From Burkholderia sp. (lineage in GTDB: Bacteria; Pseudomonadota; Gammaproteobacteria; Burkholderiales; Burkholderiaceae): a stretch of 64,000 bases of DNA. Under the pieces are notes generated by a model. It was given only the letters and a program-made list of their open reading frames with translations, had not been told where the DNA came from and made no database searches. The DNA lies in the NCBI GenBank assembly GCA_040954445.1, contig CP144362.1:248001-312000 (forward strand), written 5' to 3'. Positions 6,296 through 56,264 of the stretch are shown in pieces. A program made the translations under genes and the position numbers. Every line of letters begins with the position of its first letter. Position 1 is the first letter of the stretch.

Positions 6296-6393
6296 CATGC
6301 ATCCAAAATTCGGGATCTTGAAATTAGAAAATCGTCCCTCAGGTCTCGTTTTTTCATACCCCTCATATGGGCAATGATTTTCTAATTTCAAGA

Positions 6394-10689: not shown

Positions 10690-10754
10690 TTGTTGCATAT
10701 TGATCCGCACTTCGTGATCTAAAAATTGGAAAATCGTCCCTCATGTGATGAGTA
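10690..10754. repeat. TA-type palindromic element, left half
   Basis: attgatccgcacttcgtgat and the following gaaaatcgtccctcatgtg are the left half of the TA-type palindrome family. The right half is missing and is replaced by the foldback element at 10755. It lies directly upstream of alaA. Confidence 0.6.
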
Positions 10755-16181: not shown

Positions 16182-17372
16182 ATGTGGCGCAATTTCAACC
16201 GGCGCCTGGCTGGCCTTTTCGGTGGCAATCGTAGCCTCCCTCCCGACAGCGGTCGCGCGGCAAAAGTTGGCGTCGGGATCGTGATCGGCCTGCTGATCGC
16301 TGTTTATGCCGGCAGCGGCGTGTTTGTGGTGCCTGACGGCCAGATCGGCGTGGTGCTGCAGTTCGGCGCGTATCGCGGCACAGTGGGCCAGGGCGTTCAC
16401 TGGCGGCTGCCGTATCCGTTCGAGTCGTACGAGATCGTCGATACCGCCCAGATCCATGCCACCGAGGTCGGTCGCAACAACTTGGTGCGCATCGCCGAAG
16501 TCAAGGACGCCTCGATGCTCACACGCGACGGCGACGTCGTCGACGTGCGATTCATCGTCCAGTACCGGATCCGCTCCGCCACCGATTACCTGTTCGGAAC
16601 CGTCGATCCCGAACTCGCCGTGCGCCAGTCGGCGCAGGCAGCGATTCGTCGTATCGTTGGGACCACGTCGGCCAGCGACGTGACAGGTGCCGATCACGAC
16701 AAGCTGCGAAACCAGTTGAGCGTGACGATCCAGAGCGATCTCGACCGTGCACAGACGGGCCTGGTGGTGACGGGTGTGGTGGTCCAGGCCGCGCAGCTGT
16801 CGGAGCAGGTGCGGGCAGCCGTCGACGAAATCGGTAGGGCGCGCCAGGAGCGAGAAGCAGCCAAGAACGCGGCGCAGGTTTATGCCGACGACCTTCTTCC
16901 GCGCGCTCGCGGCGATGCGGTCAAGCTGGTCGACGATGCGAAAGCCTATGCGGATCGCGTTGTGACGCAGGCGCAGGGTGACGCGGAGCGCTACAAGCAG
17001 GTCTACATGCAATACAAGAAGGCGCCGGCGGTGGTGCGCGAACGCATGTACCTCGACACTATGCAGGACATCTACTCGAAGACCACCAAGGTCTATATCG
17101 GCAACAAGAGCGGCAACAGCCTAGTCTACCTGCCGATCGACAAGCTCTTTGAGCAGCAGCGCCAGCGCGCGGTTGAAGCCGCCAGGAGTGCCGTGCCAGT
17201 TGTGGCCGGGCAGCCGCCGGCCAGCACACCCAATGCGGGCAACACTGCGTCGGCATCTTCCGGTGTCACCCCGGCGGCGGTGAGCGCCGCCAATTCCGCT
17301 GTGCGCGGCAACGATCTACTGAGAGCGCGCGAAGCGTTCCGCAGCCGGTCACGCGAAGACGATATGCAGTAA
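16182..17372 (+). CDS. hflK: FtsH modulator HflK, N-terminal part frameshifted
   Basis: SPFH/band-7 membrane protein that with HflC forms the cage around FtsH. From 16182 (MWRNFNRRLAGLFG) the frame gives 396 aa with one TM segment (about residues 28-46, VGVGIVIGLLIAVYAG), the band-7 domain and a coiled-coil region rich in AAKNAAQ. The family's N-terminus instead starts at GTG 16021 (NDYNERSSLLRKR, then MLSINDSRWGRGEG) and is in another frame. The two frames meet at a run of six C at 16164-16169, where seven would join them. So either the ~54-residue cytosolic Pro/Gly-rich leader is lost, or slippage restores it. hflC follows after 17 bp. Confidence 0.85.
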   Translation: MWRNFNRRLAGLFGGNRSLPPDSGRAAKVGVGIVIGLLIAVYAGSGVFVVPDGQIGVVLQFGAYRGTVGQGVHWRLPYPFESYEIVDTAQIHATEVGRNNLVRIAEVKDASMLTRDGDVVDVRFIVQYRIRSATDYLFGTVDPELAVRQSAQAAIRRIVGTTSASDVTGADHDKLRNQLSVTIQSDLDRAQTGLVVTGVVVQAAQLSEQVRAAVDEIGRARQEREAAKNAAQVYADDLLPRARGDAVKLVDDAKAYADRVVTQAQGDAERYKQVYMQYKKAPAVVRERMYLDTMQDIYSKTTKVYIGNKSGNSLVYLPIDKLFEQQRQRAVEAARSAVPVVAGQPPASTPNAGNTASASSGVTPAAVSAANSAVRGNDLLRAREAFRSRSREDDMQ

Positions 17373-17389
17373 AAAAGGGAGCGCCACAC

Positions 17390-18289
17390 ATGCATCGAAT
17401 CGTTGCGCTCTTCATTGCACTTGTAGTGGTCGTGTTCGTCGCGTCGTCCGCCGTGTTCATCGTCGATCCCTGCCACGTGGCGGTGCTATCGGCCTGCTGC
17501 GGTGACGGCGAACCGACCGTGCTGGGCTCCGGCCTGCACGCGAAGCTGCCCGTGCCGCTGCAGACGGTCGTGCTGATCGACACGCGCCTGCAGACGCTCG
17601 AATGGGACGATCCGCAGAGCTGCGCCACGGCTGACAAGCAGGACGTGCTAGTCAGGCCTGCGGTGCGCTATCGGATCGCCAATCTGCGCAAATATTATGC
17701 GAAAACCAAAGGCGGCCTGCGCGATGCGGTGGATCCGCTGCTGGCCGCGCTGAAGAGCGCGATGACGCAGGCATTTTCGACGCGCTCACTAGTCGATGCG
17801 ATCGGCGCGCAGCAGGCCATCGTCGACGAGGCCAAGCGCTCGCTGCGGACTACGGTCGCCGATTACGGCATTGAAATCGACGACCTGTCGCTGCTGCGCG
17901 TGGATTTGCCCGCCAGCGCGGCTGCTTATCGCCGGATGTCGGTGGCCGAGCGCACCGCCGATACCGAGCGTGTGCAAGGCGCAGTCGATGCGCAACGCAT
18001 CAAGGCTGAGGCGGGCCGCCAGCAACAGCAGATCCTCGCGGACGGTTATCAATCGGCCCAGCGGATCAAGGGGGAAGGCGATGCGAAGGTCGCCTCGATC
18101 GCCCGCGAGGCCTCCGGCCCCGATCCAGGGTTCTACCAGTTCTATGCAAGCCTGCAGGCGTACCGGAACACCTTCCATGTGAACGATCTCATTATCGTCG
18201 ATCCGGACAGCGAGTTTTTTCGCTTCATGCGCAGCCCGATGGGCGGTGGTTGCCACGCGACGCCAGCTCCCACGCTCCGCAAATACTGA
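17390..18289 (+). CDS. hflC: FtsH modulator HflC
   Basis: 299-aa partner of HflK. An N-terminal TM segment (IVALFIALVVVVFVASSAVFIV) is followed by a band-7 domain and a C-terminal coiled coil (RIKAEAGRQQQQILADGYQSAQRIKGEGDAKV), ending with FYASLQAYRNTF. In E. coli the HflKC complex restrains FtsH, which degrades membrane and some cytosolic proteins. Start ATG 17390 follows a GGGAGC ribosome site. In relatives hisZ and purA follow; here the operon is cut by an IS at 18353, and hisZ lies 6 kb away. Confidence 0.95.
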   Translation: MHRIVALFIALVVVVFVASSAVFIVDPCHVAVLSACCGDGEPTVLGSGLHAKLPVPLQTVVLIDTRLQTLEWDDPQSCATADKQDVLVRPAVRYRIANLRKYYAKTKGGLRDAVDPLLAALKSAMTQAFSTRSLVDAIGAQQAIVDEAKRSLRTTVADYGIEIDDLSLLRVDLPASAAAYRRMSVAERTADTERVQGAVDAQRIKAEAGRQQQQILADGYQSAQRIKGEGDAKVASIAREASGPDPGFYQFYASLQAYRNTFHVNDLIIVDPDSEFFRFMRSPMGGGCHATPAPTLRKY

Positions 18290-20707: not shown

Positions 20708-20721
20708 GGCGTTATTGCATA

Positions 20722-20829
20722 TTAATCTGCAATTCGTGATCTTGAAATTGGAAAAATTGTCTCTCATGTGATTGGCACGGAAAAACAAAATATGAGGGAC
20801 AAATTTCAAAATCACGAATTGCGGATTAA
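20722..20829. repeat. TA-type palindromic element, complete copy
   Basis: The inverted arms ttaatctgcaattcgtgatc and gatcacgaattgcggattaa-type sequence are flanked by TA at 20720-20721 and 20830-20831. It is 108 bp with no coding capacity. It lies inside what was an IS903-group left end: ggcgttattgcat precedes it. Confidence 0.75.
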
Positions 20830-20831
20830 TA

Positions 20832-28615: not shown

Positions 28616-28687
28616 CGAGGTACCGTAGGCCGGTCGGCGGCGGTACGGTCTACCCAAAGAGCTGCCCCGCGCTGATTCCAGTGGCAT

Positions 28688-29000
28688 TCAATGCGCCTCC
28701 TCCCAGTTGTCGCCGGTGCCGACCTCGGCGACCAGCGGCACTTTCAGCTTGGCGATCCCGCTAATCATCTCGGGCAGCTTCTCGCGAACCAGGGCAAGTT
28801 CGTCCTCGGGAACTTCGAGTACCAGTTCATCGTGCACCTGCATGATCAGGCGCGAACGCAGCTGATCACGCTCGAGCCAGTCGTCGACGGCAATCATCGA
28901 TAGCTTGATCAGGTCGGCTGCGGTACCCTGCATCGGCGCGTTGATCGCGGTGCGTTCAGCCGCCTGGCGGCGCGGGACGTTGACGCCGTTGATCTCGGGC
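28688..29000 (-). pseudogene. polA: DNA polymerase I, C-terminal fragment
   Basis: The minus-strand frame reads PEINGVNVPRRQAAERTAINAPMQGTAADLIKLSMIAVDDWL, then LIMQVHDELVLEVPEDEL and a stop at 28688. This is the last ~100 residues of the family A polymerase domain, including the motif C aspartate in QVHDELV. It has no start and is cut off at 29000 by an IS left end. It is the 3' end of the gene whose 5' part is at 29810-30726; about 500 codons between are missing. Confidence 0.92.
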
Positions 29001-29809
29001 GGCGTTGTTGCATAAATCGAGCGAAAGCTGTTGACGTTTACGCGCAATGGTCTCCGGCCAGCCCCCTATCAACTCAGATTCCAGAGTAACTGCCTAATTT
29101 TTCCAAGAAAATGCGCAAGGACATACACAAGACAGGTGAGCCGAAGGCACGCTACCGTGTCAGGAATTGGTCGGCCTATAATGAAGGCGTGATCAACCGG
29201 GGGAACGTGACTATATGGATAGATGAAGCCGTCCTTGCCAGAATGTCCGACGCCATACCCACACGTGGTCTCGCCGTGTTTATACGGCGATACGCTGATT
29301 CAGGCATTACTTGGCGTAAAGACCGTCTATCGACTGACGGTGCGCGCCCTGCAAGGTTGCACCCAAAGTCTGCGCGATCTGGCCTTCCCGAGCTTGCCTG
29401 TGCCGAATTACACCACGCTCTGTCGCCGGGCAAAAACGCTTGATGTCGAACTGCTGATCCTTCGCGACAACGAACCGATCCATCTGTTTGTCGACAGTAC
29501 CGGTCTGAAGGTCTATGGAGAAGGTGAATGGAAGGTTCGCCAGCACGGCTACTCGAAGCCGCGCACGTGGCGTAAAGTCCATCTCGCGCTCAACGCGAAT
29601 AAGGGTCAAGTGCATGCCGCGCTCATGACGCAATTCGTAATCTTGAAATTGGCAATTCGTCCCCCATGTGATGGGCATGGAAACACGAGACATGAGGGAG
29701 AATCTTCTAATTTCAAGATTACGAATTGCGGATCAATAACAGGGCGGCTGGTCCAGCGACCGTTGCGCATAAACGTCAACGGATCTCGCTAGATTGATGC
29801 AACAACGCC
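29001..29809. mobile_element. Composite IS debris inside polA
   Basis: Three pieces sit where the middle of polA should be. An IS903-group left portion in + orientation (29001 to about 29630) contains the transposase start at 29111 but is frameshifted near 29270. A TA-type palindromic element follows (29631-29736, TA at 29737-29738). Last is an inverted IS903-group left end, about 29745-29809. Both outer boundaries are IS left TIRs facing outwards, and no target duplication exists. This fits recombination between two IS copies that deleted the intervening gene segment. Confidence 0.85.
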
Positions 29810-30726
29810 CCTACGCCTGGCGGCATATCGCCGCCAACGTTCGACGAGGCCTCCAGCTCGCGACGCCAGGTCTTGAAGCCGTAGGTCTCGAAGATCGGCA
29901 ACAGCGCCTCGCGCGATTCGCCGCGCGTCGCTAGCGAGGCTTCGATCGATTCCACTTGCGGCTTCAGTTCACAGGCCGTTTCGACTGTCACCAGCTTGCG
30001 CACGAGCGGCAGGAAGTCGAGCGCGCGTCGCAGGTTGTCGCCAACCACGCCTTTGATTTCGACCGCGTGCTCGACAATACCATCAAGCGTCTCGTATTGC
30101 GTCAACCACTTGACGGCCGTCTTCGGCCCGCATTTCTTGACGCCGGGCACGTTGTCGACGGTGTCGCCGATCAGCGAGAGGTAGTCGACGATACGCTCGG
30201 GCGGCACGCCGAACTTCGCGATCACGCCATCGCGGTCGAGCAGCTCGTTGCTCATGGTGTTAACTAGCGTGACCCGCTCCGTCACGAGCTGGGCGAGATC
30301 CTTGTCGCCAGTCGAGATCACCACCTTCATGCCGCGCGCCTCGGCAGCATGCGCTAGCGTGCCGATCACATCGTCGGCCTCGACACCCTCGATCATCAGC
30401 AGTGGCCAGCCGAGCGCACGCACCACCTGGTGGATCGGCTCGATTTGCAAGGCGAGATCGTTAGGCATCGAGGGGCGGTTCGCTTTGTAGTCGGCGCACA
30501 GGTCGTCTCGAAAAGTTTTGCCCTTGGCATCAAACACGCACGCACTATACTCCGCTGTGACTTCCTTGCGCATGCGGCGCAGCATGTTGATGATCCCGTA
30601 CAGCGCGCCAGTTGGTTCTCCGCCCGGCCCGCGCAAATCAGGCATCGCATGATAAGCTCGATAGAGATAGCTCGAACCATCAACTAACAGTAGGGGCTTA
30701 CCTTCCAGGTTCTGTTCTTCAGGCAT
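29776..30726 (-). CDS. polA: DNA polymerase I 5'-nuclease domain, free-standing by truncation
   Basis: The frame starts at ATG 30726 (MPEEQNLEGKPLLLVDGSSYLYRAYHAMP) and gives 306 polA residues plus 10 IS-encoded residues (ALLHQSSEIR) before a stop supplied by the IS end. The 5'-3' flap nuclease domain is complete: metal-binding acidic residues in LLVDGSS, CVFDAKG, EGVEADDVIG, STGDKDLAQL and IGDTVDNVPGV, and the helix-hairpin-helix KCGPKTAVKWL. The 3'-5' exonuclease-like and polymerase domains are absent, apart from the orphan C-terminus at 28688. It could still remove RNA primers as a separate nuclease, while gap filling would need another polymerase. Confidence 0.9.
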   Translation of the reverse strand: MPEEQNLEGKPLLLVDGSSYLYRAYHAMPDLRGPGGEPTGALYGIINMLRRMRKEVTAEYSACVFDAKGKTFRDDLCADYKANRPSMPNDLALQIEPIHQVVRALGWPLLMIEGVEADDVIGTLAHAAEARGMKVVISTGDKDLAQLVTERVTLVNTMSNELLDRDGVIAKFGVPPERIVDYLSLIGDTVDNVPGVKKCGPKTAVKWLTQYETLDGIVEHAVEIKGVVGDNLRRALDFLPLVRKLVTVETACELKPQVESIEASLATRGESREALLPIFETYGFKTWRRELEASSNVGGDMPPGVGALLHQSSEIR

Positions 30727-30804
30727 TACTGACAGATGCACCCAATAAAGCGTGATACGTTACACGGGTATGAAACCGAAAAAAGATGCAAGAAAACTAG
30801 CCTA

Positions 30805-30918
30805 TTAATCCGCAATTCGTTATTTTGAAATCAAAAACTCGTCCCTCATGTCTCGTTTTTCCATGCCCCTCACATGAGGGTCGAGTTTTTGATTTCAAAA
30901 TAACGAATTGCGGATTAA
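30805..30918. repeat. TA-type palindromic element, near-perfect complete copy
   Basis: 114 bp with arms of about 45 bp. Left ttaatccgcaattcgttatt and right aataacgaattgcggattaa are exact inverses. TA flanks both sides (30803-30804, 30919-30920), and the symmetry extends to agccta/taggct outside. The centre carries gtccctcatg/catgaggg-type sequence. It lies between polA and mrcA. Confidence 0.85.
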
Positions 30919-30962
30919 TAGGCTCGAGTCTGAGACGTTGAAGAAGGTGGACCTGTAGGAAA

Positions 30963-37117: not shown

Positions 37118-38240
37118 GGCGTTGTTGCATAAATCGAGTGTGAGGACGCAATAGCATCGACGGGCATAATTTCAGGCGATACGCACGGATTGCGGACGAG
37201 CGAGGTCCGTCATACGGTTGATGACGCCGACGCGAATGGAGACCTCGGTCGCCTGCGAGTCGATGTGACGCGCCCAGAGATAGTTGCCGGTGAGGGTCTT
37301 GAACCGATACATCGCATTCTCGGCAAGCGATCGCCGGTGGTAGCCACTGTCTTGCTTCCATTCTCGACGACCGTCACGGGCAATTGCATCAACCGCGCCA
37401 TTACGCCACGCCGCACCGGGCATATCCGCTGGCCAATGAGCGGCACCCTCGCGTGGCGGAATCGAAGGAATAGCACTGCGTGCAGCAATGGCCGCATGGC
37501 ATGGCTTGGTGTCGTAGGCACCGTCACCGCCGATGACATCGATTTGTTCTTCGCGTGGAATCTGGTCGAGCAACTTGGCCAGAGCGTCACCGTCAGCCAC
37601 ATTCTGATTCGTCATTAGTGCGGCATGCACTTGACCTGTATTCGCGTTGAGCGCGAGATGGACTTTACGCCACGTGCGCCGCTTCGAGTAGCCGTGCTGG
37701 CGCACCTTCCATTCACCTTCTCCATAGACCTTCAGACCGGTGCTGTCGACAACCAGATAGATCGGTTCATTGTCACGAAGGATCGGCAGTTCGACATCAA
37801 GCGTTTTTGCCCGGCGACAGAGCGTGGTGTAATTCGGCACCGGCAAGCTCGGGAAGGCCAAATCGCGCAGACTTTGGGTGAAACCTTGCAGGGCGCGCAA
37901 GGTCAGTCGATAGACGGTCTTCACGCCAAGTAATGCCTGAATCAGCGTATCGCCGTATACACACGGGCGACCACGTGTGGGTATGGCATCGGGCATTCTG
38001 GCAAGGACGGCTTCATCTATCCATATTGTTACGTTCCCCCGGCTGATCAGGCCTTCATTATAGGCCGCCCAATTCCTGACACGGTAGCGTGCCTTCGGCT
38101 CACCTTTCTTGTGTATGTCCTTGCGCATTTTCTTGGCAAAAATTAGGCAGTTACTCTGGAATCTGACTTGATAGGAGGCTGGCCCCGCGACCATTGCGCG
38201 TAAACGTCAACGGATCTCGCTCGATTTATGCAACAACGCC
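37118..38240 (-). mobile_element. IS903-group IS, intact, with perfect target duplication
   Basis: 1123 bp, both TIRs good. Flanking tggcgtcat at 37109-37117 and 38241-38249 is identical. Removing the element and one repeat rejoins an IS630 transposase relic. This is the clearest single-insertion event in the window. Confidence 0.95.
37172..38128 (-). CDS. IS5-family (IS903-group) transposase
   Basis: 318 aa, ATG 38128 (MRKDIHKKGEP), catalytic D128, D202 and E270 present. Compared with the other intact copies it carries private changes such as CVYGD, TGNYLW and RMTDL, so it is not a fresh duplicate. It sits in an IS with intact ends and target repeats and is a plausible active source for the non-autonomous elements. 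Confidence 0.92.
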   Translation of the reverse strand: MRKDIHKKGEPKARYRVRNWAAYNEGLISRGNVTIWIDEAVLARMPDAIPTRGRPCVYGDTLIQALLGVKTVYRLTLRALQGFTQSLRDLAFPSLPVPNYTTLCRRAKTLDVELPILRDNEPIYLVVDSTGLKVYGEGEWKVRQHGYSKRRTWRKVHLALNANTGQVHAALMTNQNVADGDALAKLLDQIPREEQIDVIGGDGAYDTKPCHAAIAARSAIPSIPPREGAAHWPADMPGAAWRNGAVDAIARDGRREWKQDSGYHRRSLAENAMYRFKTLTGNYLWARHIDSQATEVSIRVGVINRMTDLARPQSVRIA

Positions 38241-38384: not shown

Positions 38385-39507
38385 GACGTTGTTGCATAAA
38401 TCGAGCGAGATCCGTTGACGTTTACGCGCAATGGTCGCGGGGCCAGCCTCCTATCAAGTCAGATTCCAGAGTAACTGCCTAATTTTTGCCAAGAAAATGC
38501 GCAAGGACATACACAAGAAAGGTGAGCCGAAGGCACGCTACCGTGTCAGGAATTGGGCGGCCTATAATGAAGGCCTGATCAGCCGGGGGAACGTAACAAT
38601 ATGGATAGATGAAGCCGTCCTTGCCAGAATGCCCGATGCCATACCCACACGCGGTCGCCCGTGTCTATACGGCGATACGCTGATTCAGACATTACTTGGC
38701 GTGAAGACCGTCTATCGACTAACGTTGCGCGCCCTGCAAGGTTTCACCCAAAGTCTGCGCGATTTGGCCTTCCCGAGCTTGCCGGTGCCGAATTACAGCA
38801 CGCTCTGTCGCCGGGCAAAAACGCTTGATGTCGAACTGCCGATCCTTCGTGACAATGAACCGATCTATCTGGTTGTCGACAGCACCGGTCTGAAGGTCTA
38901 TGGAGAAGGTGAATGGAAGGTGCGCCAGCACGGCTACTCGAAGCGGCGCACGTGGCGTACAGTCCATCTCGCGCTCAACGCGAATACGGGTCAAGTGCAT
39001 GCCGCGCTAATGACGAATCAGAATGTGGCTGACGGTGACGCTCTGGCCAAGTTGCTCGACCAGATTCCACGCGAAGAACAAATCGATGTCATCGGCGGTG
39101 ACGGTGCCTACGACACCAAGCCATGCCATGCGGCCATTGCTGCACGCAGTGCTATTCCTTCGATTCCGCCACGCGAGGGTGCCGTTCATTGGCCAGCGGA
39201 TATCCCCGGCGCGGCGTGGCGTAATGGCGCGGTTGATGCAATTGCCCGTGACGGTCGTCGAGAATGGAAGCAAGAAAGTGGCCACCACCGGCGATCGCTT
39301 GCCGAGAATGCGATGTATCGGTTCAACACCCTCACCGGCAACTGTCTCTGGGCGCGTCACATCGACTCGCAGGCGACCGAGGTCTCCGTTCGCGTCGGCG
39401 TCATCAACCGCATGGCGGATCTCGCTCGTCCACAATCCGTTCGTATCGCCTGAAATTATGCCCGTCGATGCCATTGCGTTCTCACGCTCGATTTATGCAA
39501 CAACGCC
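38385..39507 (+). mobile_element. IS903-group IS, full-length intact copy
   Basis: 1123 bp; the left TIR has A at position 2, the right TIR is exact. It is embedded in a TA-type palindrome whose two halves flank it. The flanking 9-mers differ (tcttgaaat; cccatgagg), so some host-element sequence was lost. Confidence 0.9.
38497..39453 (+). CDS. IS5-family (IS903-group) transposase
   Basis: 318 aa from ATG 38497, catalytic D128, D202 and E270 present. Private substitutions (LIQTLLGV, PNYSTLC, RTWRTVHL, SGHHRRSL, RFNTLTG) show it is drifting. The change Y to H next to the RRSLAE glutamate helix may affect activity. Confidence 0.9.
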   Translation: MRKDIHKKGEPKARYRVRNWAAYNEGLISRGNVTIWIDEAVLARMPDAIPTRGRPCLYGDTLIQTLLGVKTVYRLTLRALQGFTQSLRDLAFPSLPVPNYSTLCRRAKTLDVELPILRDNEPIYLVVDSTGLKVYGEGEWKVRQHGYSKRRTWRTVHLALNANTGQVHAALMTNQNVADGDALAKLLDQIPREEQIDVIGGDGAYDTKPCHAAIAARSAIPSIPPREGAVHWPADIPGAAWRNGAVDAIARDGRREWKQESGHHRRSLAENAMYRFNTLTGNCLWARHIDSQATEVSVRVGVINRMADLARPQSVRIA

Positions 39508-39556
39508 CCCATGAGGGACGATTTTCAAATTTCAAGATAGCGAATTACGGATCAAT
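39508..39556. repeat. TA-type palindrome, right half
   Basis: catgagggacgattttc then aatttcaagatagcgaatta and cggatcaata form the mate of 38357-38384. A loose IS tip gcaacaacgcc follows. From 39570 to 39750 lies the ilvA leader. Confidence 0.65.
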
Positions 39557-39671
39557 AAGCAACAACGCCACTGCTCAGAATTGAAGCCGGCGTGGACGCC
39601 CGAATCTGGCGGGTAAGGTCATCCAGTGCCGCTGCACGGAAATTTCCCGTCTGTCCCCGGTTGTATCACCG

Positions 39672-55545: not shown

Positions 55546-56172
55546 CTAGATTTTAGAATGCCCATTATTTGCGCATTTCAGCAAATGATAGTGGACCGTT
55601 CCGGTCTTACCCTCGCGCGTCACCACCCAGCCGGCCAGCGCCTCGTGCCCGGCGGGATCGAGCGGCTCGCCTGATTCCACGTACAGATCGCCGCCCGGCC
55701 CGGCCAGCCGCGCCGCCAGCGGCAGGGCGCGCGCGAACAGTTCAGTTTCAGCGAAGGGTGGATCGAGAAACACTACATCGAACGAGCTCGGCGCTAGGCC
55801 TGCCGCGAGCCGCAGTGCTTCAGACTCGACCACTTCGACGTTGCGCGCCGACAGCTTCTCTCGAACTGCTCTCAATTCCCCGGTCGCGCACGCATTGTGC
55901 TCCACCATCACCACGCTGGCCGCGCCGCGCGACGCGGCCTCGAAACCGAGCGCGCCGGTTCCGGCGAACAGGTCGAGGCAGCGGCGACCGTCGAGATCCT
56001 GGCCGAGCCAGTTGAATAGCGTTTCGCGCACGCGATTGGGCGTGGGGCGCAGGCCGTCGAGGTTAAGCACCCGCAGCGGCGTGCGTTTCCACTCGCCGCC
56101 GATAATGCGCACCGAGTGTGGCTTGCCGCGGGCGGCGCTGGAAGACGGGTGGGCGGCAGGCGAACGGGACAT
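55546..56172 (-). CDS. rsmD: 16S rRNA (guanine966-N2)-methyltransferase RsmD
   Basis: 208-aa SAM-dependent methyltransferase acting on G966 of 16S rRNA during 30S assembly. VRIIGGEWKRTPLRV, the RPTPNRVRETLFNWL segment, the SAM loop DLFAGTGALGFEAASRGA and the catalytic LDPPF are all present. ATG 56172 (MSRSPAAHP) is chosen; the frame is open to 56226. A short C-terminal tail (CANNGHSKI) follows the last conserved segment. In relatives it lies near ftsY; here the two are 4.5 kb apart with otsA and pyrB in between, so the region is rearranged. Confidence 0.92.
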   Translation of the reverse strand: MSRSPAAHPSSSAARGKPHSVRIIGGEWKRTPLRVLNLDGLRPTPNRVRETLFNWLGQDLDGRRCLDLFAGTGALGFEAASRGAASVVMVEHNACATGELRAVREKLSARNVEVVESEALRLAAGLAPSSFDVVFLDPPFAETELFARALPLAARLAGPGGDLYVESGEPLDPAGHEALAGWVVTREGKTGTVHYHLLKCANNGHSKI

Positions 56173-56264
56173 ACGAAATCGGCTGGAGCGGGGTGATCTG
56201 GACAGGCTGGGGGGCGGAACAAGCACACGTTACCACAGGCCCACCCCATTTCCAAAGTGGGGCA

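Follow-up and report, generated by a model that had tools for sequence, protein, structure and literature searches.

In the window, the whole 64-kb stretch of Burkholderia DNA analysed here, polA is present as two separate pieces on the minus strand, and the gap between them is occupied by insertion sequence (IS) debris. The features of the locus are listed below in order of position.

28688..29000, minus strand: C-terminal polymerase remnant, the last 103 polA codons including the stop codon
29001..29630, plus strand: IS1, the left end (~630 bp) of an IS5-family element, abutting the polymerase remnant
29223..29792, plus strand: transposase remnant ORF (189 aa) in the insert, with PF13737 and PF01609
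29629..29738, no strand assigned: 110-bp palindromic element separating IS1 and IS2
29743..29809, minus strand: IS2, the left 67 bp of a second IS copy in the opposite orientation, adjoining the nuclease
29776..30726, minus strand: free 5'-nuclease ORF (polA N-terminus), ATG at 30726, 316 codons
30727..30798, minus strand: replacement sequence directly upstream of the nuclease start codon, without homology to the relatives' polA upstream region
30799..30924, no strand assigned: palindromic element of 126 bp farther upstream of the nuclease, with 53-bp arms that are 98% complementary

The nuclease ORF is composed of about 305 polA codons (29810-30726) and an IS-encoded tail with the stop. In the profile search, the open frame 29776-30741 (minus strand) matched PF02739 (7e-56) and PF01367 (6.8e-26), and both domains (5_3_exonuc_N and 5_3_exonuc) are intact within this single frame. 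Query residues 1-304 of the nuclease are 93.8% identical to the intact polA of the related genome G017 (tblastn). Within the retained nuclease, neither the ORF check nor the tblastn alignment with G017 polA revealed a stop or frameshift. The nine metal ligands of Taq polymerase all have an acidic counterpart in the nuclease, and in alignments with Taq and with a 908-aa Pol I chain (6vde) the catalytic carboxylates are conserved. The final ten or so codons (...ALLHQSSEIR) are encoded by IS2, which also supplies the stop codon. A sequence-only reading of this locus had described an in-frame 5'-nuclease domain with its metal ligands kept and a stop codon inside an IS end, and the profile matches, the Taq alignment and the position of IS2 agree with both descriptions. 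An independently acquired nuclease gene was ruled out by the 93% identity to the PolA of the nearest relative, G017.

The fragment 28691-29047 (minus strand) matches only profile positions 279-381 of the 381 in PF00476, and the remnant is 91.3% identical to the C-terminus of G017 polA (tblastn). As the reference for the missing part we used G017, the closest among 65 genomes searched. All 65 genomes of its genus (65/65) have a polA match without an internal stop, and their polA open frames are at least 925 aa, except one of 737 aa. The G017 polA has 919 codons by coordinates, and the two pieces in the window correspond to its codons 1-305 and 817-919 (tblastn), so that about 511 codons are missing. 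By blastn, the homology on the nuclease side extends a few codons further and 1520 bp are missing; the polA breakpoint is therefore uncertain by about 3 codons. No polymerase domain was found in the nuclease protein by the profile search, with ~510 codons gone. The sequence-only reading had put these figures at about 100 polymerase residues left in a 3' remnant still present and about 500 codons missing, close to the values obtained here.

Read from the remnant side, the gap consists of ~630 bp of an IS left end, the 110-bp palindrome and 67 bp of an inverted IS left end. IS1 covers IS positions 3-631 with 93.7% identity to the reference copy, and IS2 covers positions 3-67 with 89.2% identity, differing from the consensus at 7 of 67 positions. 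The element is 1123 bp long and belongs to the IS5 family; its 68 BLAST segments make up 35% of the 64 kb, and its transposase is of the DDE type (PF01609/PF13737, profile search). We presume that it belongs to the IS903-like group of this family, which generates a 9-bp target duplication. Two of the nine IS copies examined have a perfect 9-bp duplication (9/9 bases) and the other seven do not, which fits the IS903-like group. At the outer edges of the polA insert there is no target duplication, with 2/9 bases in agreement. A single simple IS insertion was ruled out by the two inverted left ends around a palindrome, the lack of a 9-bp duplication and the ~510 missing codons. The insert would instead reflect two or more insertions combined with at least one deletion. 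The term "IS-mediated deletion", given to the locus in the sequence-only reading, is too simple for the inverted ends, the palindrome and the absent duplication. To trace the element, a 601-base probe consisting mostly of IS sequence was compared with plasmids by megablast and gave no match.

The 110-bp palindrome has related copies elsewhere in the window. The palindrome family comprises elements of ~50-126 bp at 29629-29738, 30799-30924, 20717-20831, 6301-6391, 10695-10748 and 39510-39560. Several members are close to IS ends, and the family may represent a MITE or a hot spot for IS insertion. Two full-length IS copies (37118-38240 and 38385-39507), 97.8% identical and separated by 144 bp, are inverted relative to each other, and both contain an open frame of 340 aa.

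Upstream of the nuclease, the similarity to G017 extends only to 30728, 2 bp beyond the ATG (blastn), and the native polA upstream DNA is gone. The 72-bp stretch 30727..30798 that replaces it has no match in any relative locus compared at E 0.01. On the polA strand the consensus scan detected nothing resembling a promoter, a point against a working nuclease; its sole promoter-like site is on the opposite strand, with 1.3 expected by chance.

A split polA is already in print. The polA of Burkholderia sp. Lv-StB, a symbiont of the beetle Lagria villosa, is described as "two truncated pseudogenes" (PMC7042692, PMC11542224). In the Lv-StB bin of Waterworth et al. (2020), the order is polA fragment, one transposase gene, polA fragment (PMC7042692), and the polA of the LvStB MAGs was characterized in 2024 as highly truncated and pseudogenised (PMC11542224). 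Both papers report Lv-StB polA only as truncated copies (PMC7042692, PMC11542224), whereas an intact polA is reported for the sister lagriamide symbionts, with LhHG_2 as the exception (PMC11542224). PMC3914690 and PMC8493222 contributed nothing on polA. Lv-StB and the window are alike in having two polA fragments flanking one transposase gene (E5299_1120 / E5299_01122 in Lv-StB), and both belong to genome-reduced, IS-rich, gladioli-related Burkholderia. The GC content is 58.63% in LvStB_2023, a complete long-read LvStB genome (PMC11542224), versus 59.1% in the window. By description, the window very probably comes from Lv-StB or a very close relative, and its locus is very probably the same as the published one. 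The Lv-StB papers present the copies as truncated or as pseudogenes; in their polA passages the nuclease frame, selection, IS anatomy and lost 5' flank do not come up, and no test of selection on the nuclease is seen there or among the literature search results. New here is that the pseudogene label is put to the test, the remnant serving as internal control within one gene.

If the published reading is correct (PMC7042692, PMC11542224), both polA fragments are dead pseudogenes, and the nuclease frame would be intact only for want of time. The loss of the native promoter region favors this reading. In several bacteria polA is non-essential, according to work cited by Waterworth et al. (PMC7042692). 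Since the polymerase remnant is still present, the lineage allows retention of the nuclease by selection to be tested against a dispensable polymerase.

The lineage counts cover codons on which the relatives G017, G031 and G018 agree, and a change was scored when specific to the window lineage. This first count leaves out a further relative, G053; a recount used simpler path counting, four outgroup sets (two of them including G053) and bootstrap intervals. As the neighbor set, 24 window genes besides polA were listed, and the 11 with orthologues in the relatives' stretches were used, leaving out 13. On the window lineage, the nuclease has an omega of 0.061 (N7/S37), the polymerase remnant 0.188 (N7/S11) and the 11 intact neighbor genes pooled 0.157 (N215/S454). 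On the G017 lineage, the nuclease has an omega of 0.064, from only N1/S5, and the pooled neighbor genes 0.043 (N10/S74). The difference between 0.157 and 0.043 in the pooled genes (p=7e-5) indicates that the window genome as a whole is relaxed. The nuclease shows no such relaxation on the window lineage, its omega being no higher than in free-living kin. Among the 11 intact genes, hflK, hflC and rsmD (16182-18289, 55546-56226) have open frames and the highest lineage omega, 0.30-0.35.

In the recount, omega was 0.031-0.061 for the nuclease (upper bootstrap limits 0.08-0.12), 0.113-0.142 for the pooled genes and 0.120-0.188 for the remnant. The point estimates follow the order nuclease < pooled genes < remnant in every outgroup set, and the bootstrap intervals of the remnant are wide and overlap both the nuclease and the pooled genes. 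By Fisher tests, the nuclease differs from the pooled genes (p=0.028), for the contrast between nuclease and remnant N/S gives p=0.09 and N per site p=0.06, and the remnant, which is far from neutral, does not differ from the pooled genes (p=0.61). These tests indicate that the nuclease is more constrained than the neighbors and that the remnant is indistinguishable from an intact gene by N/S alone. The dN/dS comparison of 29810-30726 with 28688-29000 that the sequence-only reading had proposed thus gives the contrast in point estimates (0.03-0.06 against 0.12-0.19), but with p=0.09 and overlapping intervals. The low nuclease omega relative to the intact genes of the window speaks against two dead fragments, whereas the p=0.09 contrast and a remnant no more relaxed than intact genes are in their favor.

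Because the N/S of the remnant does not differ from that of intact genes, the case for its decay rests on an invariant-site test and a sister-pair test. At sites invariant in 84 full-length relatives, the window has changed 1/159 in the nuclease and 5/62 in the remnant (p=0.007), a contrast that counts against both fragments being dead. Among intact relatives, taken as 42 disjoint pairs, the differences are divided 461:149 between nuclease and remnant regions, at similar per-site rates. Relative to this ratio, the window-specific splits obtained with three outgroup sets, 6:8 (p=0.01), 5:8 (p=0.005) and 4:7 (p=0.007), are shifted towards the remnant; against G017 alone the split is 11:9 (p=0.06). 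We consider, with moderate strength in view of the Fisher tests (p=0.028 against the pooled genes, p=0.09 against the remnant on N/S), that the nuclease has been retained by purifying selection; part of the branch predates the split.

The time available for decay was judged from the adjoining IS. IS1 is 5.1% from the window IS consensus, has three 1-bp indels in ~630 bp and carries private differences at 2.4% of sites. Its terminal branch is ~0.035 in a tree of 21 IS copies, with a placement support of only 0.06. Synonymous change in the nuclease on the window lineage is ~0.24 per site (37 in 152). A branch of 0.035 compared with 0.24 suggests that the insertion is perhaps a seventh of the lineage age and not fresh. 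A very recent event was ruled out by the IS1 divergence, with a dating that assumes the divergence to have arisen after insertion, whereas it may partly predate it. The idea that the locus was caught just after the event does not agree with the 5.1% divergence and the ~0.035 branch.

The same assumption, that the IS divergence is post-insertion, underlies a neutral-drift simulation of the nuclease. The threshold was set at 11 replacements, the full number of differences between the window nuclease and G017, and for the time before insertion the nuclease omega of the lineage counts was applied. The probability of 11 or fewer replacements was P=0.05 at an IS age of 0.015 and P=0.009 at 0.024, and at 0.035 or 0.05 no run stayed that low (0/3000). 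At the young age of 0.015 neutrality is thus borderline, which leaves some room for two dead pseudogenes. An IS of 5.1% divergence with three indels beside a nuclease without stop or frameshift argues the other way. Overall, we regard the dead-pseudogene reading as possible but rather unlikely.

The split polA probably leaves a working free 5'-nuclease while the 3' polymerase fragment decays. IS copies and then a deletion would have eliminated proofreading and polymerase regions from the Pol I of a Burkholderia symbiont with a shrinking genome, leaving the 5'-nuclease domain free-standing and closed by the IS-encoded tail. The putative flap endonuclease/5'-3' exonuclease, if expressed and enzymatically active, most likely still removes RNA primers, and the resulting gaps would be filled by DNA polymerase III. 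A free nuclease combined with Pol III is the natural reading. On the sequence evidence, it also seems reasonably likely, if slightly less so, that what was published as a "pseudogene" encodes a functional, free-standing flap endonuclease at an intermediate stage towards a nuclease-only state, in which the polymerase arm would have been disarmed by two inverted IS ends and the native promoter replaced at the start codon. If the nuclease survives, polymerase and proofreading are lost and primer removal is not. The fast evolution of Lv-StB has been attributed to the loss of polA (PMC11542224).

An assembly artefact, with the halves misjoined or an intact polA elsewhere in the genome, is very improbable: 35% IS sequence makes the window a setting prone to assembly error, but the fragment order is the same in the Lv-StB bin (PMC7042692), the LvStB MAGs carry a truncated polA (PMC11542224), the window possibly deriving from these assemblies, and the remnant has changes at invariant sites.

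Nuclease-only PolA is a common end point of genome reduction, and the sequence-only reading had named Buchnera among the symbionts that reach it. Among 81 endosymbionts, PolA was complete in 29, reduced to the 5'-nuclease in 23 and missing in 29, and 16/18 Buchnera have nuclease-only PolA (PMC6403173). The PolA.1-only symbionts and the window are alike in keeping only the N-terminal 5'-nuclease, ~290 aa in Buchnera (PMC6403173). Unlike the PolA.1-only Buchnera, the window keeps a 3' polymerase remnant, IS debris and an IS-encoded protein tail. We searched 299 genomes, five of which had no match, and followed up nine with PF02739 and seven with PF00476, picked mainly by small size among the matches listed. 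Among the matches listed, G078 and G098, both 0.5 Mb in size and from the same family, have open frames with PF02739 (290 and 288 aa) and no match to PF00476. Being nuclease-only without a polymerase remnant, these would represent a later stage than the window. If the preferred reading of a surviving nuclease is true, the split polA is a testable step towards the nuclease-only state of Buchnera and of these 0.5-Mb genomes. Full-length polA frames are present in four genomes of 1.1-1.2 Mb (G072, G075, G092 and G131); G119 has a 235-aa PF02739 frame, and G093 has no PF02739 match.

Free-standing 5'-nucleases are also known as FenA of B. subtilis and ExoIX of E. coli, which belong to the same nuclease superfamily and have the same expected role as the window nuclease; ExoIX and other 5'-3' exonucleases match it. 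FenA and ExoIX are separate genes, whereas the window nuclease is the N-terminus of polA. In B. subtilis, the polA fenA double deletion is lethal and the single deletions are not (PMC13082043, a 2026 preprint; lethality also PMC13220808). This lethality indicates that the 5'-nuclease function is essential and that gap filling is open to another polymerase (PMC13082043). Five relatives of the window have one PF02739 protein each (5/5), which is PolA itself, so that no spare 5'-nuclease is evident in its kin.

Two further observations concern polA in relatives. In G122, a 1.2-Mb relative (L157 = G122:C1:643500-654500), polA is divided into a nuclease open frame of 308 aa and a polymerase open frame of 631 aa, through a frameshift or a sequencing error. 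In G017, G031, G018 and G053, the contig carrying polA (2.8-3.9 Mb) differs from that of the hflX, mrcA, ftsY and ribBA orthologues. As polA (28661-30728 in the window) lies apart from those genes in the relatives, a rearrangement either joined them in the window lineage or parted them in the others.
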